Shown: piece by piece, positions 1,203-7,525 of the stretch
Layout: every line of letters begins with the position of its first letter
Numbering within the stretch: position 1 is the first letter of the stretch
Assembly: GCA_913020705.1 (NCBI GenBank)
Contig: CAJWBY010000190.1
Location: forward strand, 1-7,525
Length of the DNA: 7,525 bases
From: an uncultured Colwellia sp.
GTDB lineage: Bacteria; Pseudomonadota; Gammaproteobacteria; Enterobacterales; Alteromonadaceae
Reading direction: 5' to 3'
The notes under the pieces: generated by a model
What the model was told of the DNA's origin: nothing
The model's input: the letters and a program-made list of their open reading frames with translations, nothing else
Databases searched by the model: none
Made by a program: the position numbers and the translations under genes

Positions 1203-1298
1203 TAACAAGTCATTAAAGCAGGACAAAAAACAGTTGGTTTTTGCTCGTGCCTCGCTTATTTTAACCAACTATTTTATTGCCTCTTAATGAGGCGTTAG
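1203..1298 (+). repeat. attC site of cassette 2
   Basis: The site has R'' TAACAAG, an L'' block GCAGGACAA, an inner stem CAGTTGGTT paired with AACCAAC, an L' block TTGCCTCTTA, and R' GCGTTAG. ACTAAC (1201-1206) pairs perfectly with GTTAGT (1294-1299). GG-A-CAA opposite TTGCC leaves one unpaired base, the extrahelical base typical of attC. The inner stem reads GGTT/AACC here instead of the common GGCT/AGCC, so both sides have changed together. Confidence 0.93.
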
Positions 1299-1307
1299 TG
1301 GTAAAAC
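1294..1307 (+). repeat. Left terminal inverted repeat of cassette 3
   Basis: GTTAGTGGTAAAAC here is the exact reverse complement of 2177-2190 at the other end of the same cassette. It runs 7 bp past the 7-bp R box. In the excised circle the two copies become the outer stem of a single attC. This is the longest of the terminal repeats in the window. Confidence 0.85.
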
Positions 1308-1331
1308 AATATTCCAACTTTAGAGTAATTA

Positions 1332-2174
1332 ATGAGTCATATTTTATTTAAAACTATTTTACTAGTATCTGTATTAACATCATGTGCATCTACAGTAGAT
1401 CAAACAATACCTCTTTCAAACGATTTTGAAGTGAGCTCAAAAGTCATAACCTTAGAAAACCCTAGCTGGAGAATTCCAGATTCAATTTATAATATCAATT
1501 TAGATACATATCATACCGAAAGTTCTAAAACTTCATGGAGGAGCGCTGATAGGACGTTAGTGAACAGAAAGAAAGATATTAGCTTTATAAATTATATTCT
1601 TTTCGATGATGCCCTTTCTTTTATAACTGAAGAGTTTGAAGTGGAAGAAACACAAATATTTTCTTTTAATCTTGCAAAAGATGATTTACTAATTTCCACA
1701 TCTAAATGCGAAATATTCTCACAATCTTTAGCTAAAGATACTGTAGCAGCCGATATAGAATACTCAAATAAAAGTTCAAATTCTCACCATAGTATTAGAG
1801 TAAAAACTTATTTAGTCTGTGCCATTACGCACAATAATAAATTGTGGGAACTCACGCTGACATCAAATAGTGAAGAAAATATTAAAATAAAATTGAAAAG
1901 TGAGAGTCTGTTTTATGAAATTAAAGGTGTGTCTAAAATTATAAATTTAGTGAAAGATAACAATGTAATAGAGAAAAGAAATTCTCCACCTTGGCGTTCA
2001 TTAAAATCAGGGCTAGAATTTTTTCAATATAAAGAACAGGTTGCGGCTTTATCCTTTGTCGGAAAACCTAAAATTTGGCTACGGGATGATTTGTCCACTG
2101 AATCAAAAGAGTTGTTACTGTCTGTAAATTATAGTTTGACTATGTTTAATTGGTTAGATAGCAGTTGGAGGTGA
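1332..2174 (+). CDS. Predicted lipoprotein of unknown function
   Basis: The product has 280 aa. The N-terminus has a short charged region, a hydrophobic stretch (ILLVSVLTS), and a lipobox LTSC with the lipidated Cys at residue 18. It should therefore be processed by signal peptidase II and anchored to a membrane facing the periplasm. Ser follows at +2 after Ala, so outer-membrane sorting is likely. The mature part is about 260 aa, mixed alpha/beta, with a FFQYKEQVAALSFVGKPKIW segment and Trp near the C-terminus (NWLDSSWR). I recognise no domain. The start ATG 1332 has only a weak TAGAG-like site upstream, but it is the only start that keeps the signal peptide intact. The stop comes just before the attC. 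The gene fills its cassette and has no operon partner. Function cannot be assigned. Confidence 0.82.
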   Translation: MSHILFKTILLVSVLTSCASTVDQTIPLSNDFEVSSKVITLENPSWRIPDSIYNINLDTYHTESSKTSWRSADRTLVNRKKDISFINYILFDDALSFITEEFEVEETQIFSFNLAKDDLLISTSKCEIFSQSLAKDTVAADIEYSNKSSNSHHSIRVKTYLVCAITHNNKLWELTLTSNSEENIKIKLKSESLFYEIKGVSKIINLVKDNNVIEKRNSPPWRSLKSGLEFFQYKEQVAALSFVGKPKIWLRDDLSTESKELLLSVNYSLTMFNWLDSSWR

Positions 2175-2176
2175 CA

Positions 2177-2190
2177 GTTTTACCACTAAC
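2177..2190 (-). repeat. Right terminal inverted repeat of cassette 3
   Basis: GTTTTACCACTAAC is a perfect 14-bp complement of 1294-1307. It includes the R'' box of this cassette's attC and the 7 bp before it, just after the lipoprotein stop codon. Confidence 0.85.
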
Positions 2191-2282
2191 AAGCCATTCA
2201 AGCAGGACAAATAACAGCTGGCTATTTGCTCCTTCGTCGCTTATTTTAGCCAACTATCATTTGCCTCTTAATGGGGCGTTAG
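2187..2282 (+). repeat. attC site of cassette 3
   Basis: R'' TAACAAG, L'' GCAGGACAAAT against L' ATTTGCCTCTTA with one extra A on the left arm, inner stem CAGCTGGCT against AGCCAAC, and R' GCGTTAG. The loop region TTTGCTCCTTCGTCGC is close to those at 1203-1298 and 5051-5145. Confidence 0.94.
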
Positions 2283-2288
2283 GTGCTT

Positions 2289-2672
2289 ATGAGTAAATCA
2301 TTCAAAGCGTTTCTATTTACTCCGAGTTTAGCTCCTATTCTGTATGTTTTTTATAATTATATTGCAACGTCGGGTAGGACTGGAGATATTGGCGGCGCAG
2401 GAATTATTGCGCTTATTTGCTACTCTTGGGCAATAATTATTGGCTTTCCCTTATCAAAAGTTATGCGAAGGAAATCATGGTCTAAATGGTGGCAGTATTT
2501 CATTGTTGGCTTTATAAGTGGTTCTCCTTTCGCTATTTTTTGGTATGGTTTTGGTTTACCTATGATGCTCGTAATGTTTGTAAGTGCGGGTGTTATTTCT
2601 GGGGTATCTGCGATAGTATTCTGGGCAATAATAAACCCAGCACCTAACAAGAAAATCAACAAGGACACGTAA
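2289..2672 (+). CDS. Small polytopic membrane protein, unknown function
   Basis: The product is 127 aa from ATG 2289. The frame is open from GTG 2283, but that codon abuts the R' core and only adds two residues. Four hydrophobic segments are visible, at about 7-27, 36-56, 67-87 and 92-115. Between segments 2 and 3 is a basic loop (KVMRRKSWSKWW), probably cytoplasmic by the positive-inside rule. The Gly-rich loop TGDIGGAG lies between segments 1 and 2. The last residues (NKKINKDT) are encoded by the attC itself: the frame runs through R'' and stops at TAA 2670-2672, inside the L'' side. The start has only an AGGTG-like site 3 nt upstream, so translation may be weak. I recognise no family. Confidence 0.78.
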   Translation: MSKSFKAFLFTPSLAPILYVFYNYIATSGRTGDIGGAGIIALICYSWAIIIGFPLSKVMRRKSWSKWWQYFIVGFISGSPFAIFWYGFGLPMMLVMFVSAGVISGVSAIVFWAIINPAPNKKINKDT

Positions 2673-2741
2673 CAGTTGGCTACGTTTCGCTTCGCTACAC
2701 ATTTTAGCCAACCATTACTTAGCCTGTTATTTGGGCGTTAG
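2645..2741 (+). repeat. attC site of cassette 4
   Basis: TAACAAG at 2645, CAGTTGGCT against AGCCAAC in the inner stem, and GGGCGTTAG at the right end. The L arms (AAGGACACG and TTAGCCTG) pair less well than in the other sites. The central loop TACGTTTCGCTTCGCTACAC is unusually rich in TTCG. The terminal codons of the membrane-protein gene lie inside the left arm. Confidence 0.92.
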
Positions 2742-2783
2742 CATTTTCTCAAGCATTAGTTGCTATCAATAAAAGGACTTTTA

Positions 2784-4202
2784 ATGAAAACATTTTTTTT
2801 ACTCATCGTCGCGTTACTTTATTCTTTCCCCACATTAGCCAATAAAGAGTTAGCTTCATCATTCATAACCGTTTTTAATGGAGGTTCACGCATTGAAGTC
2901 ATAGATTACCTTTCTGATCATATGTCTAAAAGTAGAATTGAAACATACGGTATTGATGCACATGTTGGTGTCTTTTTAAATAGCCAAAACACCTTTGGAC
3001 ACTTAGATGTTATAAAGGTTTTACCTCCTAGTAATGGCAATGAAAGAATTGAGGTTATATCTAACAATAATAAATTCAAATATAACCTAATAATAAACAA
3101 AGAAAAAGATGCGCCTTATAAAATCAACTATTTTACTTTGCAAAATTCTAAGCCTGAGCATAGCTCCAAAAGGTTGATATCACCGAAAGAGCTCGCTCAA
3201 GAGCTATCTAGTTTTATTAATAACCTAAGTATTGAAGATGCTTTTTCTGGTTCTGTTTTGGTTGCAAAGGGTAATGATGTAATTTTTAAAGGTTCTGTGG
3301 GTTATGCAAACAGAACGTGGAAGATAAAAAATAATATTGATACTAAGTTTTCATTGGGCTCTATGAACAAAATGTTCACTGCCATAGCTGCATTGCAACT
3401 TATAGAAAAGGGTAAATTAAAATTTGATGACAAGCTTATTCAGTTTGTTGATAAAGACTGGCTACCTAAGGGCGACTCTGATTCTATTACAATTAGGCAG
3501 CTTCTCACACATACATCAGGTTTAGGTAATTTCTTTAATGATGAGTTTAATAAAAGTAATAAGGAAGCATACAGAAATTTAGACGCATATAAACCATTAA
3601 TATCCCAAAGCGAACTTTTATTTGTGCCAGGCTCACGAAACCGCTATAGCAACTCGGGGATGTTGATGCTTGGTTTAGTCGTTGAAAAAGTTAGCGGTCA
3701 AAGCTATTACGACTATGTTCAAAAGCATATTTATAATAAAGCTAATATGACCAATTCGGGGAGCTTTGAACTTGACTCTGTTACAGCCAACTTAGCCTCT
3801 GGATATTTAAAAAGAATGCATAGTGACCAGTGGGTCGATAGTATTTATGCTAGAGCAATTAAAGGAAGTCCAGCCGGAGGCGGTTTTTCATCAGTTGAAG
3901 ATTTATATCAATTTGCTATTGCACTGACTGAATTTAGATTACTAGGTAAAAAGTTAACCGAGGATGCTTACACTGAGAAAACTCAATATAATTCTGCTTT
4001 TTGGTATGGTTATGGTTTTTCAGTTAGCGGAGAGGAAAATAATCGTGTTGTGGGTCATGGAGGAGCTTATTTAGGCGTAGATTCACGTTTAGATATACAC
4101 CTTGATAGCGGGTTCGTTGTTGTTATATTGGCGAACCAATCAGATGTGGTCGCACCAGTAAGAAGAAAAATTAATGAGCTAATTAGAAAGTATGGTTCAT
4201 AA
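2784..4202 (+). CDS. Exported serine hydrolase of the beta-lactamase/class C family
   Basis: The product is 472 aa from ATG 2784, with AAGGA at 2773-2777, 6 nt upstream. The frame is open from TTG 2760, but that lacks a ribosome site. A signal peptide (residues 1-19, ending SFPTLA) sends it to the periplasm or outside. Residues about 20-140 form an extra N-terminal part, perhaps NTF2-like. From about 150 comes the serine beta-lactamase-like domain (Pfam Beta-lactamase, PF00144). The catalytic SMNK is at S193-K196, followed by LLTHTSGLG, YSN at 288-290, GSPAGGG, and the third motif HGG at 425-427 in place of KTG. This pattern fits esterase, DD-peptidase or peptide hydrolase members (EstB/AmpH-like) better than a true beta-lactamase. 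All three motifs are intact, so it is probably active. The substrate is unknown. It is the largest gene of the window and is alone in its cassette. Confidence 0.92.
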   Translation: MKTFFLLIVALLYSFPTLANKELASSFITVFNGGSRIEVIDYLSDHMSKSRIETYGIDAHVGVFLNSQNTFGHLDVIKVLPPSNGNERIEVISNNNKFKYNLIINKEKDAPYKINYFTLQNSKPEHSSKRLISPKELAQELSSFINNLSIEDAFSGSVLVAKGNDVIFKGSVGYANRTWKIKNNIDTKFSLGSMNKMFTAIAALQLIEKGKLKFDDKLIQFVDKDWLPKGDSDSITIRQLLTHTSGLGNFFNDEFNKSNKEAYRNLDAYKPLISQSELLFVPGSRNRYSNSGMLMLGLVVEKVSGQSYYDYVQKHIYNKANMTNSGSFELDSVTANLASGYLKRMHSDQWVDSIYARAIKGSPAGGGFSSVEDLYQFAIALTEFRLLGKKLTEDAYTEKTQYNSAFWYGYGFSVSGEENNRVVGHGGAYLGVDSRLDIHLDSGFVVVILANQSDVVAPVRRKINELIRKYGS

Positions 4203-4208
4203 AAATGC

Positions 4209-4303
4209 TAACAAGTCGCTTAAAGTGGACGCAAAACAGTTGGCTTGCGCTCATTCTTCGCTAATTTTAGCCAACAATTTTGCGCCCGTTAGCGAGGCGT
4301 TAT
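4209..4303 (+). repeat. attC site of cassette 5
   Basis: TAACAAG at 4209. GTGG-A-CGCAAAA pairs with TTTTGCGCCC, leaving one unpaired A, one of the clearest extrahelical bases in the window. Inner stem CAGTTGGCT against AGCCAAC, right end GAGGCGTTAT. Confidence 0.94.
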
Positions 4304-4543
4304 CAGGCAACACAATTAATAAGTTTTTTATTATTTAATGTTGCTTGGCTTTCACATCAAAGGACTGGTGCTTATTCCCTTCTTTGTTGTGTTTAATCAA
4401 ATAGTTTTAAATCAGGTAAACAGTTTATGTTACTGTTTACCAATCAAATTTAGTGGTGTTGTGTTGCATTATTTCTGCACATTAAATATCACTAAAATAA
4501 TTTTAACGTTAGTAGCAAGTTCAGTGCTTTAAAGTCTTTCTGC
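4304..4543 (+). other. Body of cassette 6: no convincing gene
   Basis: Between the attC at 4209-4303 and the one at 4544-4630 is an AT-rich cassette body of 240 bp. The only frame of any length, 4338-4532, would encode 64 hydrophobic residues (MLLGFHIKGLVLIPFF...). It has no ribosome binding site before ATG 4338 and no recognisable motif, so I do not call it a gene. I saw no convincing frame on the other strand either. The notable content is the hairpin at 4415-4441. Gene-less cassettes are common in large arrays and may carry promoters or small RNAs. The cassette's two ends (GTTATCAGG and CTGCTAAC) match poorly, unlike the others. Confidence 0.6.
4415..4441. repeat. Perfect 10-bp inverted repeat in cassette 6
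   Basis: GGTAAACAGT (4415-4424) and ACTGTTTACC (4432-4441) are exact complements, with a 7-nt spacer TTATGTT. No T-run follows, so it is not a standard Rho-independent terminator. It could be an RNA hairpin or a dyad operator for a DNA-binding protein. Confidence 0.6.
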
Positions 4544-4630
4544 TAACAAGGCAATCAATCGGACACGTACAGTTTGCTCGCGCTTCGCGCAGTTTAGCAA
4601 ACATTACTTAGCCGCTTATTGTGGCGTTAT
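4544..4630 (+). repeat. attC site of cassette 6
   Basis: TAACAAG at 4544, inner stem CAGTTTGCT against AGCAAAC, right end GTGGCGTTAT. The inner stem uses TTGCT/AGCAA where most sites use TGGCT/AGCCA, a paired change. The apical loop is replaced by the near-palindrome GCGCTTCGCGC. At 87 bp it is one of the two shortest sites here. Confidence 0.92.
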
Positions 4631-4641
4631 AAGGAACAAGG

Positions 4642-5064
4642 ATGTATCGAGTAATTTTCACATTTTGGCTTTTTAGTTCCTTTGCTTTCGCAGATTCAGG
4701 CCCTCAACGAACCGAATTGACAAATGACATAGCAAAAAAACTCGGATTTAGTGTTACTGAAATGGAATCTGGTAAAAATGAAATAAAGTTAATTCACTTT
4801 AAATTTCCATCAAATATCGGTACGGGTTGTATCGCAGGTAGAATTCAAACTGCATTATTAGATTCAGATGATGTAGAATTAACTAGTTCATCATTTGATT
4901 CTCAACCTGCATCAGACTCACCTAGTATTTTATTTCATTACAATAATTCGAAACACGATATGGCAATCCAAATCCAGTACTGTTGTACCGCAGGGGATTT
5001 ACCCGGTTGCAAAAAAGCATATACAATAGGTTCAGTGTCAAAGTTCCTTATAACAAGGCACTAA
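4642..5064 (+). CDS. Small exported protein with four cysteines, unknown function
   Basis: The product has 140 aa. ATG 4642 follows AAGGA (4631-4635) by 6 nt, a good ribosome site. It lies directly behind the R' core, so the leader is only about 15 nt. A signal peptide (MYRVIFTFWLFSSFAFA, then DSG) predicts cleavage after residue 17. The mature protein of about 123 aa has Cys at 63, 114, 115 and 123, the last three in IQYCCTAGDLPGCKKAY, so disulphides in the periplasm are likely. The middle is rich in Ser and Asp (70-93). The last five residues are encoded by the R'' end of the attC, and the stop TAA 5062-5064 lies within it. I recognise no family. Confidence 0.82.
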   Translation: MYRVIFTFWLFSSFAFADSGPQRTELTNDIAKKLGFSVTEMESGKNEIKLIHFKFPSNIGTGCIAGRIQTALLDSDDVELTSSSFDSQPASDSPSILFHYNNSKHDMAIQIQYCCTAGDLPGCKKAYTIGSVSKFLITRH

Positions 5065-5145
5065 AGCAGGACAAATAACAGTTGGCTTTTGCTCCTGCGT
5101 CGCTAATTTTAGCCAACAATTATTTGCCTCTTAGTGAGGCGTTAG
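5051..5145 (+). repeat. attC site of cassette 7
   Basis: TAACAAG at 5051. CAGG-A-CAAAT pairs with ATTTGCCTC, leaving one unpaired A. Inner stem CAGTTGGCT against AGCCAAC, right end GAGGCGTTAG. The loop is close to those at 1203-1298 and 2187-2282. Confidence 0.94.
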
Positions 5146-5156
5146 GTATACATGGC

Positions 5157-5693
5157 ATGTTCAATTTTCGCGGCAAGCTCATATTTAATAAATCAACATT
5201 CTTTGTCACTACCTTTTTAGTAATTTATTACTATTTAACCAACTTCATTATTCTTGATATTAAATATCTTACTGACAATGAATACATAGTGATATTTTAT
5301 TTAAATGCTATTTTGTGTTTACTTTTTCGCGCAGGATCGGAAAACCCTAAGCTTTCATTTATGGATGATGATGATAATTACTACAAATCTAAATCAGAGA
5401 TAAAAGTAGGATTCTATTTTGCTGTAATAGCTTTTGGTTTGTGGTACATATTCTACGAGGAGTTTGTTAAAAACATGTATTTTAACGCCACATCAGGGAT
5501 CGCTGTTTTAGCTATTACAATAAGTCTTGGGCGTTTAATCACATACGATGCATTATCAGAAGATACTGAAATGCACAAAATGCATTTAGCAGCTAATTTC
5601 AAACAAAGTAAATTGTCGGGTATTATTTATTTTATTGGCTCTCTAATAGCGTTAGCAATTTTTATTCACGGTGACTGGTTAGTAAGAGTTTAA
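5157..5693 (+). CDS. Polytopic membrane protein, unknown function
   Basis: The product is 178 aa from ATG 5157. The frame stays open upstream through the attC to 5082, but that part is recombination site, and the ATG at 5152 is out of frame. About five hydrophobic segments are seen (roughly 14-33, 42-57, 82-100, 112-126 and 154-172). An acidic loop SFMDDDDNYY (67-76) lies between segments 2 and 3, and a His/Met-containing loop, DTEMHKMHLAANF (136-148), precedes the last segment. An AGGT 9 nt before the start is the only ribosome-site candidate. The acidic stretch and HxxxH-like residues could bind a metal, but that is speculative. I recognise no family. The stop is 8 nt before the attC. Confidence 0.78.
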   Translation: MFNFRGKLIFNKSTFFVTTFLVIYYYLTNFIILDIKYLTDNEYIVIFYLNAILCLLFRAGSENPKLSFMDDDDNYYKSKSEIKVGFYFAVIAFGLWYIFYEEFVKNMYFNATSGIAVLAITISLGRLITYDALSEDTEMHKMHLAANFKQSKLSGIIYFIGSLIALAIFIHGDWLVRV

Positions 5694-5701
5694 AGTATAC
5701 C

Positions 5702-5788
5702 TAACAAGTTGCTTAAACGGAATAAAAACAGTTGGCCATCGCTTCGCGATTATAGCCAACCATTTTTATCCGCTTAGCAAGGCGTTAT
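5702..5788 (+). repeat. attC site of cassette 8
   Basis: TAACAAG at 5702. CGGA-A-TAAAAA pairs with TTTTTATCCG, with one unpaired A. Inner stem CAGTTGGC against AGCCAAC, with loop ATCGCTTCGCGAT, which itself can pair. Right end AAGGCGTTAT. 87 bp. Confidence 0.94.
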
Positions 5789-5801
5789 ACGAATCTCGAT
5801 T

Positions 5802-6119
5802 ATGGATGATGAAATCAAATTAATAGTTTCAAACGAAGCTAATGTCTCTCTTGAAAAAGTCACTGAGAATTCTACTTTGTTGGTAGATCTAAAAGTTGAT
5901 GGAGATGACGCCTGGGAGGTGTTTGAGCAGTGTCATGATAAATTCAAACTTGATTTAACCGACTTTGATTTTAACCAACACTTCAGATCTGAACCTTGCT
6001 TTAAAGGTTTAGTTTATCTTTATCGTAAAATGAAATATCATGACGAACATATAGCCGCTAATAAAATTCCTATTACAGTCAAACAGTTAATTTCTGCATG
6101 TAAAAAAGGTAAGTGGTAA
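5802..6119 (+). CDS. DUF1493 family protein (acyl-carrier-protein-like)
   Basis: The product has 105 aa, the usual size for this family. Visible features in order: an N-terminal helix (IKLIVSNEANVSLEKV), TENSTLLVDL, the family's GDDAWEVFEQC block (34-44), FKLDLTDFDFNQHFRSE (48-64), and the C-terminal ITVKQLISACKKGKW. DUF1493 (PF07377) resembles acyl carrier proteins in fold. The Ser that carries phosphopantetheine in ACPs lies in a DSL motif. Here the equivalent place reads GDDA with no Ser, so it probably cannot carry an acyl group. Its role is unknown. Relatives often occur as lone genes or cassettes in enterobacteria and vibrios. The start ATG 5802 has no clear Shine-Dalgarno and a 14-nt leader behind the R' core. 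The frame ends one codon before the attC. Confidence 0.87.
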   Translation: MDDEIKLIVSNEANVSLEKVTENSTLLVDLKVDGDDAWEVFEQCHDKFKLDLTDFDFNQHFRSEPCFKGLVYLYRKMKYHDEHIAANKIPITVKQLISACKKGKW

Positions 6120-6126
6120 ATTCGTA

Positions 6127-6218
6127 TAACAAGCTGTTCAAGCGGGACAAAAAACAGTTTGCTGTTTCGTCCCTCAACATTTTAGCAAACAATTTTTTGC
6201 CCCTTAACAGGGCGTTAG
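6127..6218 (+). repeat. attC site of cassette 9
   Basis: TAACAAG at 6127. CGGG-A-CAAAAAA pairs with TTTTTTGCCCC, with one unpaired A. Inner stem CAGTTTGCT against AGCAAAC, as in the site at 4544-4630. Right end AGGGCGTTAG. Confidence 0.94.
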
Positions 6219-6243
6219 CATTCAAATCAAGTATGGAGAAAAA

Positions 6244-6558
6244 ATGAAGTTTTTATTATCAATTACAGGATGTTTATTTTTAGCGGGCTGCGCAACTGGC
6301 TATCAAGAATATACTTGGTCTGGTGGTTATAAAGATAAAGAGTTAGGTGAGAATCACTACTTAGTTGAATACTATGGCAATGGAACAACCTCAACTGAAA
6401 TGCTTAAAAGTTTTTGGAGCAAGCGTGCGGAACAATTATGCTCTAAAGGTTACGATGTAATTGGTGAAGATAACGGTAAAACTGATGGTGGTATATTTCT
6501 TGGTGGCATAGTGTCAATCGCTCATCCTTGGTTAAAAGCCGAAATACAGTGTAAATAA
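6244..6558 (+). CDS. Small lipoprotein, CC0125/CC1285 type
   Basis: The product has 104 aa. ATG 6244 follows GGAG (6235-6238) by 5 nt. The signal peptide ends in lipobox LAGC with Cys at residue 16, so the protein should be lipidated and envelope-bound. The mature part carries the small-lipoprotein pattern GGYKDKELGENHYLVEYYGNG (from 27), followed by TSTEMLKSFWSKRAEQLCSKGYDV. It matches what I recall of the CC0125/CC1285 lipoprotein family, whose signature is GY.....L....Y.V.F.GN......A.....RAAEL....G. A Gly-rich segment GGIFLGGIV (82-90) and a C-terminal Cys103 follow. Cys66 and Cys103 could form a disulphide. The function of the family is unknown. The gene is alone in its cassette and ends 4 nt before the attC. 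Confidence 0.85.
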   Translation: MKFLLSITGCLFLAGCATGYQEYTWSGGYKDKELGENHYLVEYYGNGTTSTEMLKSFWSKRAEQLCSKGYDVIGEDNGKTDGGIFLGGIVSIAHPWLKAEIQCK

Positions 6559-6562
6559 ATGC

Positions 6563-6655
6563 TAACAAGTTACTCAAACGGACGCTAAACAGTTGGCTAG
6601 CGCTCGTTCCTCGCAATTTTAGCCAACAATTTCGCGCCGCTTAGTAAGGCGTTAT
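6563..6655 (+). repeat. attC site of cassette 10
   Basis: TAACAAG at 6563, ACGG-A-CGC against GCGCCG in the L arms, inner stem CAGTTGGCT against AGCCAAC, right end AAGGCGTTAT. Apart from the R-proximal bases and a two-base gap in the loop, it is almost the same sequence as the site at 7434-7525. Confidence 0.94.
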
Positions 6656-6946
6656 GCGTCAGCGCGAATTCAGTTTAAATTGTTTTTCACTGTTGGTGTT
6701 TTATAAAAGTTTTCGCACTTGTTGCCTATTCTTTATTTTGGTAACTTAAGTGCCAAATATTTAGTTTCAGCTATTGGTTAAACATTTTTTCGCCAAAGTG
6801 GTTTGGTGGTAAAAGTCACATTATTTAAGTGTCTCAAAATTCATGGTTTGGTGTGTCGCACTGCGTGGGAGTTTTTTAATGCTACGGTCGGGCTGCCACG
6901 AAACCTTATATAAATTGCGTTGTTTGTGGTATTCACAACCAGCGCA
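6656..6946 (+). other. Body of cassette 11: no gene
   Basis: This is a gene-less cassette body of 291 bp. The only frame, 6843-7028, would encode 61 aa, has no ribosome site, and runs on into the attC, where NKLLKRT is simply the translated R''/L'' sequence, so I reject it. The body is T-rich on the + strand. Its general style (TTAAATTGTTTTTCACTGTTGG, GCACTGCGTGGGAG) recalls the non-coding cassettes of vibrio arrays, an impression from memory. A small dyad, TTGTG-GTATT-CACAA (6924-6938), lies just before the attC. Such a cassette might carry a promoter or a small RNA. Confidence 0.65.
6680..6707 (+). promoter_or_regulatory. Possible sigma-70 promoter in cassette 11
   Basis: TTGTTT (6680-6685), a 16-nt spacer, then TATAAA (6702-6707). 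The -10 matches five of six consensus bases, while the -35 matches only TTG. It points toward cassette 12, about 350 bp further on. In AT-rich DNA such pairs arise by chance, so this is a weak call. Confidence 0.22.
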
Positions 6947-7039
6947 TAACAAGTTGCTCAAACGGACAAATAACAGCTGGCTGCGCTCGTGCCTCGCACA
7001 TTTTAGCCAACTATTATTTGCCCCTTAGCAAAGCGTTAT
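6947..7039 (+). repeat. attC site of cassette 11
   Basis: TAACAAG at 6947. ACGG-A-CAAATA pairs with TATTTGCCCC, with one unpaired A. Inner stem CAGCTGGCT against AGCCAAC. The right end is AAAGCGTTAT, with AGCG in place of the usual GGCG just before GTT. The last three bases of the R' box together with G7040 contain an ATG of the next reading frame. Confidence 0.93.
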
Positions 7040-7044
7040 GTATC

Positions 7045-7050
7045 TAGGAG
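7045..7050 (+). promoter_or_regulatory. Ribosome binding site that selects TTG 7056
   Basis: TAGGAG sits 5 nt before an in-frame TTG at 7056 and downstream of the ATG at 7038. That ATG overlaps the attC R' box and has only recombination-site sequence upstream. Initiation at TTG is therefore better supported. Confidence 0.6.
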
Positions 7051-7055
7051 TTGTC

Positions 7056-7436
7056 TTGAGTTCTCGGTTTAATAAAAAGTCTCTGATTCGCTGGAAGGTC
7101 TATATAGATCGGTCAAAAATGTATATGGGCTATATACAGTTTTTGCTTATAATTTTTGTTACTATCGAATCTTTAGGCGATAGCCCAGTAAAGGAGTTTG
7201 TATTTAATAGTCCATTGGTTGCAATCCCTGTTATTCTGGTAATTTTTGTGTTGGCTTCTTTGTTGATTGGTTACTTAGATTCTAGACTCGGGTTTCGTGA
7301 AGAAGAAATTAGAAATCACTCTAAATCTAATCCAGTATTAATGGATATTCAAAAATCTCTTAATGAGCTAAATGATAAAATAGCACAAATAGAACAAGGT
7401 AAAATAAACAAAAATTCCGACGAAAAAGATACATAA
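7056..7436 (+). CDS. Two-helix membrane protein with C-terminal coiled coil, unknown function
   Basis: The product is 126 aa from TTG 7056, chosen because TAGGAG precedes it by 5 nt. An ATG at 7038 would add six residues but lies in the R' core. A basic N-terminus (SSRFNKKSLIRWKVYIDRSK) precedes two transmembrane segments, at about 22-40 and 54-74. Next comes GYLDSRLGFREEEIRNHSKSNPV (72-94), then a heptad-like, Leu/Ile-spaced stretch MDIQKSLNELNDKIAQIEQ (96-114), probably a coiled coil in the cytoplasm, and a polar tail. The topology, with both ends inside, suggests a small oligomeric inner-membrane protein or a partner-binding protein. I do not recognise a named family. The stop TAA 7434-7436 is also the first three bases of the attC R'' box, so gene and site overlap. 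Confidence 0.8.
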   Translation: MSSRFNKKSLIRWKVYIDRSKMYMGYIQFLLIIFVTIESLGDSPVKEFVFNSPLVAIPVILVIFVLASLLIGYLDSRLGFREEEIRNHSKSNPVLMDIQKSLNELNDKIAQIEQGKINKNSDEKDT

Positions 7437-7525
7437 CAAGCTATTCAAACGGACGCTAAACAGTTGGCTAGCTTCGTTCCTCGCAATTTTAGCCAACAAT
7501 TTCGCGCCGCTTAATAGGGCGTTAG
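7434..7525 (+). repeat. attC site of cassette 12 (complete to R' core)
   Basis: TAACAAG at 7434, ACGG-A-CGC against GCGCCG, inner stem CAGTTGGCT against AGCCAAC, and GGGCGTTAG as the last bases of the window. The next cassette starts just outside. The central part is almost identical to 6563-6655. Confidence 0.93.

Follow-up and report, generated by a model that had tools for sequence, protein, structure and literature searches.

The 7,525-nucleotide (nt) stretch of DNA studied here (the window; uncultured Colwellia sp., contig CAJWBY010000190.1, to the whole of which all position numbers refer) is an ordinary array of chromosomal-integron cassettes, of the Colwellia type. Eleven attC sites, each of 86–96 nt, lie on the + strand between 1203 and 7524, and all eleven fall within the 57–142 nt that defines membership of this class of site. 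The boundary triplets AAC (in the R'' box) and GTT (in the R' box) are present in 11/11 sites, and the consensus fold of 25 pairs makes the sites palindromes that fold as single strands. They delimit a tandem array of 10 bounded cassettes of 327–1562 nt in one orientation. The strict RYYYAAC form of R'', judged by eye, occurs in 2/11 sites, which does not exclude membership because PMC2727003, in the part consulted, confines conservation to the triplets. No integron integrase gene is present within the 7,525-nt window, and an Rfam search gave no match above the gathering scores; of the 17 genomes in which loci with such sites lie, 15 have an integron integrase that scores above the cut-off of its family. 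Where it is intact, the array shows no departure from the known chromosomal-integron kind. What concerns us is that the first bases of most of these cassettes are the exact reverse complement of the bases at the same cassette's 3' end, and that this pairing probably reflects selection on the excised cassette circle. The attC sites below come from covariance-model searches, and the length of each arm is that of its exact complement at the other end of the same cassette.

1203..1297, + strand: attC closing the cassette upstream of cassette 3 (covariance-model match, 95 nt); its R' gives the cassette 3 start arm
1294..1307, + strand: cassette 3 start arm, 14 bp, exact reverse complement of 2177–2190
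2177..2190, + strand: cassette 3 end arm, taking in the AAC of R'', exact reverse complement of the start arm
2187..2281, + strand: attC of cassette 3
2278..2287, + strand: cassette 4 start arm, 10 bp
2639..2648, + strand: cassette 4 end arm
2645..2740, + strand: attC of cassette 4
2737..2747, + strand: cassette 5 start arm, 11 bp
4202..4212, + strand: cassette 5 end arm
4209..4302, + strand: attC of cassette 5, whose bottom strand, folded alone, gives a hairpin (z = -3.52)
4299..4547, + strand: cassette 6, start arm to R'', 4 bp, then a mismatch at position 5 and three further matches
4544..4629, + strand: attC of cassette 6
4626..4637, + strand: cassette 7 start arm, 12 bp
5043..5054, + strand: cassette 7 end arm
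5051..5144, + strand: attC of cassette 7
5141..5151, + strand: cassette 8 start arm, 11 bp
5695..5705, + strand: cassette 8 end arm
5702..5787, + strand: attC of cassette 8
5784..5794, + strand: cassette 9 start arm, 11 bp
6120..6130, + strand: cassette 9 end arm
6127..6217, + strand: attC of cassette 9
6214..6222, + strand: cassette 10 start arm, 9 bp
6558..6566, + strand: cassette 10 end arm
6563..6654, + strand: attC of cassette 10
6651..6658, + strand: cassette 11 start arm, 8 bp
6943..6950, + strand: cassette 11 end arm
6947..7038, + strand: attC of cassette 11
7035..7045, + strand: cassette 12 start arm, 11 bp
7427..7437, + strand: cassette 12 end arm
7434..7524, + strand: attC of cassette 12

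A previous annotation made without database searches (the sequence-only reading) had listed nine matched pairs of ends, and all nine are exact reverse complements at the lengths given. Its claim that each cassette is so matched holds for these nine, at 8–14 bp, but not for cassette 6 (4299–4547), which it had omitted and which matches over 4 bp only, with GTTAT facing GTTAG at position 5 (positions are counted from the G of GTT). From cassette 3 to cassette 12, the own-end matches are 14, 10, 11, 4, 12, 11, 11, 9, 8 and 11 bp, a sum of 101. When the ten ends were permuted 100,000 times, the mean sum was 52.3 and the maximum 99, so that 101 was reached by none; the 90 non-own pairings gave 88 matches of 4–7 bp, one of 9 and one of 10. 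The same reading attributed about 7 bp of each match to the R boxes, which underestimated the effect: the R-box consensus explains only about 4 bp (GTTA) because positions 5–7 differ among cassettes and match their own partner. The leading G of GTT lies beyond the crossover point and is strictly not the cassette's own base. The cassettes upstream of 1294 were left out of these tests, since those flanking an attC-like element at 454–553 cannot be bounded because its right-hand box, as read from the sequence, has no GTT. This element is of another sequence type and resembles a worn attC, and the first cassette (40–420) apparently has an open frame interrupted by in-frame stops. Cassette 6 belongs to an ORF-poor (open reading frame-poor) family of about 330 nt found in several Colwellia arrays (window 4299–4547, L038 508, L060_L037 2047 and L120_L121 12280); the mismatch at position 5 is common to the window copy and that of L038, and in the L060_L037 copy the match is 8 bp long.

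The shuffled-pairing null proposed in the sequence-only reading was run on two large sets of cassettes. A pattern scan of species genomes gave at least 119 stretches with such sites; among the matches listed, many are from Colwellia, and Pseudoalteromonas, Shewanella, Marinomonas, Vibrio and others are also represented. Homologues of window cassettes occur in Colwellia genomes (the cassette starting at 7035 in L046, 83.8% at the nucleotide level, and that at 6651 in L135, 84.4%). Covariance searches for attC covered the window and the 119 loci, and the sites used for counting were found again by nhmmer. For the Colwellia-type set the profile was built from the 11 window sites, and the search does not favor matched ends because the outermost four bases on each side of the profile are constant (TAAC and GTTA). 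From 1249 nhmmer matches, we dropped 104 whose ends lacked AAC or GTT and 14 that lay at the edge of a sequence; the 962 cassettes obtained were reduced to 852 distinct, 697 non-redundant (redundancy being more than 10% shared 12-mers) and finally 583 shorter than 1000 nt, from 109 loci. The Vibrio genus-group set, whose profiles were seeded from fold-predicted sites of 119–124 and 91–100 nt and which underwent the same, untallied, removal of sites, went from 350 to 347, 249 and 227 cassettes in 13 loci. Cassettes of at least 1000 nt (Vibrio, at least 1300 nt) stand outside the per-position tables.

In both sets own ends match far above the null. The Colwellia-type own match has a mean of 9.76 bp and a median of 11 bp (n = 583), compared with 4.80 bp for re-dealt ends (standard deviation 0.05, 500 shuffles), 4.87 bp for other pairs within the same locus and 4.73 bp for the true array neighbor (n = 579). 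At least 8 bp are matched in 492/583 cassettes (84%) vs 3.9% after re-dealing. The Vibrio values are similar: mean 9.87 and median 10 bp (n = 227), with a null of 4.87, an array neighbor match of 4.99 and at least 8 bp in 216/227. A match to the array neighbor was thus tested and rejected, as it stands at chance level in both sets. Other gammaproteobacterial integrons, found via the integrase family, yielded few long arrays. In L174, L196 and L201, a small and uncertain sample with fold-predicted sites, nine of 11 cassettes match over 7–10 bp and two over 3–4 bp; seven cassettes of L172, L177, L205 and L206 match over 3–6 bp, and the fold-predicted sites there may be false. In genome G289, where the sole match to the integrase is split in two, 8/8 cassettes reach at least 8 bp, and this intact matching may reflect a recent loss of the integrase. 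Near their attC arrays, two of the related genomes carry disrupted or incomplete matches to the integron integrase, at G289:C79:22401-23250, G006:C16:658147-658620 and G006:C1:1063061-1063354. Two loci of one Psychrosphaera genome (L129_L130 and L131) hold many cassettes with identical or nearly identical ends, matching over 7 bp and, among the pairs listed, mostly 84–94% alike, which suggests multiplication inside the array.

The match has an upper limit. Colwellia-type cassettes match their own end at positions 5–13 in 94, 94, 93, 93, 88, 81, 67, 39 and 24% of cases, and Vibrio cassettes in 99, 100, 100, 97, 90, 62, 60, 31 and 22%; the chance level across these positions is 24–48%, and both sets are at chance from position 13. 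The commonest Colwellia-type length is 11 (174/583), and only 14/810 cassettes of both sets together exceed 12 bp. At edges 9–14, a one-base bulge or one-base internal loop beyond which pairing resumes is rare. Positions 2–12 amount to 11 bp from the cut because the crossover falls between the first and second bases of GTT (PMC12901181 and PMC2727003, in the parts consulted).

The two ends also change together in evolution. Homologous cassettes were paired disjointly, each being used once, with either the most distant or the closest pairs taken first; close homologues were defined by at least 50% amino acid or at least 70% nucleotide identity and made up 106 of 125 Colwellia-type and 59 of 65 Vibrio pairs. 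In the 125 Colwellia-type pairs ordered from the most distant, there were 41 double changes at positions 5–8, 30 of them complementary in both members, vs 19/173 at positions 13–20, and the odds ratio of an end change given a start change was 33 at 5–8 vs 2.9 at 13–20. With the closest taken first, complementary double changes numbered 23/32 vs 9/108, and in close homologues only, 11/16 vs 14/88. The Vibrio pairs kept pairing in 24/24 double changes at 5–8 vs 3/44 at 13–20; for close homologues these figures were 13/13 vs 2/23, and the end had changed with the start unchanged at 0/218 positions of 5–8. Across all pairs, complementary double changes at positions 9–11 were 21/43 (Colwellia-type) and 9/16 (Vibrio). 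One or more double changes with at least 8 bp still matched in both members were seen in 21/79 and 14/30 families, respectively. Start arms of close homologues changed less at 5–8 than at 13–20, with 41/424 vs 221/848 in the Colwellia-type set and 18/236 vs 101/472 in Vibrio. Because homologues change both ends together, own-end pairing is maintained in evolution and is not merely a mark of how the cassette was born; in the chromosome the ends lie hundreds of bases apart, and it is only when the cassette has been excised as a circle that they make up both sides of a single site, so that the pairing is maintained in a form peculiar to the circle.

Predicted folds agree with this distinction between circle and array. 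For 220 sampled cassettes per set, the bottom strand was folded twice, once with its own start as in the circle and once with the start of the following cassette as in the array. The predicted mean energy was -23.6 vs -18.2 kcal/mol for the Colwellia-type set (gap 5.45) and -22.7 vs -17.9 kcal/mol for Vibrio (gap 4.89), and the circle was predicted to be more stable in 208/220 cassettes of each set. In-register arm pairs were predicted at 9.9 vs 4.0 (Colwellia-type) and 9.8 vs 2.9 (Vibrio), with the R arms predicted to be fully open in 11 vs 77 and 7 vs 116 of 220, respectively. Folds with random starts gave -18.0 and -17.8 kcal/mol; since the array values lie near these, the models give pairing with the neighbor no sign of selection. 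Bottom-strand G.T mismatches outnumbered top-strand ones at position 10 by 26:3 (Colwellia-type) and 17:0 (Vibrio), an excess reached in 0/5000 re-deals of each set.

Own-end pairing itself is already known; what is new is support for what maintains it. PMC2727003, in the part consulted, states with reference to Rowe-Magnus 2003 that in most cassettes self-pairing reaches past 7 nt to 9–11 consecutive complementary nt, so that the sequence-only reading presented as unexplained a feature that had been published. Compared with the sedentary chromosomal integrons of Vibrionaceae and relatives, the window is alike in its array, 86–96 nt attC sites, AAC/GTT triplets, palindromic fold and an R' common with the next cassette, and, going by the same portion of that source, in the extended self-pairing. 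Our measurements add the restriction of the match to own ends with a chance-level match to neighbors, the limit near 12 bp, the covariation of ends in homologues and the predicted gap in stability between circle and array. The covariation, the arm limit and the energy contrast were not found in the portions consulted of the open-licence literature searched, which is weak evidence of absence, and the parts consulted of PMC3053210, PMC8352920, PMC8946536 and PMC6393395 contain nothing on own-end pairing. A related point is made by Loot et al. 2017 (PMC5371416), namely that within an array the variable 4 bp of R' may fail to complement R''; in the portion consulted it is a remark on sequence input, and no comparison of own ends with neighbors was found there.

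The best explanation, to which we assign a probability of about 0.7, is selection for a longer double-stranded, integrase-bound R arm in the folded attC of the circle. Selection on the circular-form attC was one of two possibilities raised in the sequence-only reading, and it is borne out by own ends that match, array neighbors at chance, co-changing ends of homologues and start arms that change less. The start and end of a cassette would each contribute one strand to a single arm that the recombinase binds and that is whole only in the free circle. The integrase recognizes the folded bottom strand of attC (PMC8191803), and binding begins at the R box, where mismatches in attI1 lower it (PMC4792948; both sources in part). 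If the R box is bound first, repeated excision and re-insertion would select for complementarity of own start and own end over the length of the arm, and integrase binding would set that length. In an inserted cassette the next cassette supplies R', pairing is down to GTTA plus chance, and the attC is predicted to be weaker than in the circle; circles may thus be better substrates than array sites.

The integron integrase and XerCD belong to the same recombinase superfamily. The XerC/XerD half-sites of dif are 11 bp and flank a 6-bp center (PMC5357621, in the part consulted), and the cassette arm likewise measures as much as 11 bp when counted from the cut. The dif site is double-stranded DNA, whereas the attC arm is an intrastrand duplex brought together from both ends of a circle, often 8–10 bp long.

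Several observations weigh against selection on a circle arm whose length the integrase sets. The link to the integrase footprint is a coincidence of length, the upper limit being equal to a Xer half-site, and the commonest Vibrio length of 9 (74/227) fits it less well. Nor does footprint selection account for a deficit at position 13 in the Colwellia-type set, in which cassettes matching through 12 match there in 8/130 cases, with 19% expected from base composition (P = 2e-5); the Vibrio set has 6/31 and no general deficit. The coupling is weaker outside positions 5–8, as at 9–11 in close homologues (Colwellia-type 5/17, odds 1.9, p 0.07; Vibrio 2/4, odds 6.3, p 0.016). At position 12, complementary double changes are 8/20 and 0/8, respectively. 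Distant homologues, at 30–40% amino acid identity, could each be an independent cassette carrying the same gene. In the Colwellia-type set 91/583 cassettes fall below 8 bp. In a mixed set at least 8 bp were reached by 413/532 profile-bounded cassettes and, where one end or both had a fold-predicted site, by 18/31, 15/26 and 11/39, the last being bounded solely by fold-predicted sites, some of which are probably false. The bottom-strand G.T excess extends to position 11 in the Colwellia-type set only, is absent at 5–9 (20:26 and 3:3), tends the other way at 9 and is not accompanied by more frequent continuation of the helix past such wobbles, so that the wobble evidence for selection on the folded bottom strand is mixed and only suggestive.

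Among other explanations, matched ends could have been left by the way in which cassettes arise. Group IIC introns provide a route to cassette formation, and a cassette born from a folded structure such as a hairpin or terminator around the gene, for instance by reverse transcription involving a group II intron, would have matched ends as a remnant. The sequence-only reading had put this forward as its other possibility. It may describe the origin but not the whole story, as homologues of 70–90% identity change in step at positions 5–8 and varied hairpin origins should give varied lengths, whereas matches above 12 bp are rare; as a sole cause it is already contradicted by the double changes in close homologues, and we regard it as quite unlikely to explain the matched ends. 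Templated conversion, in which the sequence of one arm serves as the template for the other in a folded circle or single strand, would produce complementarity without functional selection and would give coordinated changes with few intermediates, as in the close Vibrio pairs with no end-only change. However, copying alone would not be expected to slow substitution in the arms, yet start arms have about 2.7-fold fewer changes than positions 13–20; mismatched intermediates exist (start-only changes make up 25/41 in close Colwellia-type and 5/18 in Vibrio pairs); and copying would erase unpaired features of attC such as extrahelical bases, which persist (PMC2727003, in the part consulted). We therefore consider conversion unlikely.

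The arms could instead serve RNA or the gene, either as a transcript stem around the gene or through ribosome-binding and stop signals that match by accident. Stops do cluster in and just before the arm, and the TAA of R'' is the stop codon of 166/594 Colwellia-type and 82/215 Vibrio ORFs. Against this role, cassettes without an ORF of 60 codons still reach at least 8 bp (36/50 Colwellia-type and 17/19 Vibrio), and if the signals were those of every gene, re-dealt ends should match as well, which they do not; such a role is very improbable. That the match is R-box consensus plus chance alone draws on GTTA being nearly universal and part of nearly every match, but it is refuted by the permutations of both the window and the large sets, as well as by the neighbors at chance, and can hardly be true.

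Selection on the circle might also make the system a one-way ratchet, although we offer this only tentatively and think it somewhat doubtful. The circle would be a strong substrate; insertion would swap the pairing partner, and attC would lose a predicted 5 kcal/mol or so, which could keep long arrays stable without regulation of the sites. Array order would be free because no match to the neighbor is selected, and arm length would be capped at about 12, pairs beyond 12 being disfavored in the Colwellia-type set.

The sequence-only reading also proposed that the match is an internal bar code of intactness, and this is supported, as low-match cassettes often conceal the partner of one end inside their body. 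An exact 10-nt internal partner is present in 54/146 low-match (at most 6 bp) vs 7/528 high-match Colwellia-type cassettes (4/19 between) and in 3/9 vs 0/231 Vibrio cassettes (1/9 between). Low-match Colwellia-type bodies are about twice as long, and length is insufficient to explain the difference. An internal partner suggests a missed, broken or fused attC, and a good part of the apparent match failures are likely fused cassettes or missed attC sites.

As for the cassette genes of the window, 2760–4199 encodes a serine beta-lactamase-like fold (PF00144, a broad family), 573–1196 a GNAT acetyltransferase (PF00583) and 5802–6116 a DUF1493 protein (PF07377); six other cassette proteins scanned gave no Pfam match. 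In the Colwellia-type set stops also pile up immediately beyond the 12-bp arm (60 end at -12 and 16 at -13), and purines of ribosome-binding sites, judged by eye, often directly follow the start arm.

The own-end match provides a simple computational test of whether a cassette is intact, fused or contains a missed attC. Evolution apparently acts here on a form of DNA that is not seen in the genome sequence, the excised cassette circle, and this makes it testable why the insertion of cassettes differs from their excision and what stabilizes arrays of hundreds of cassettes.

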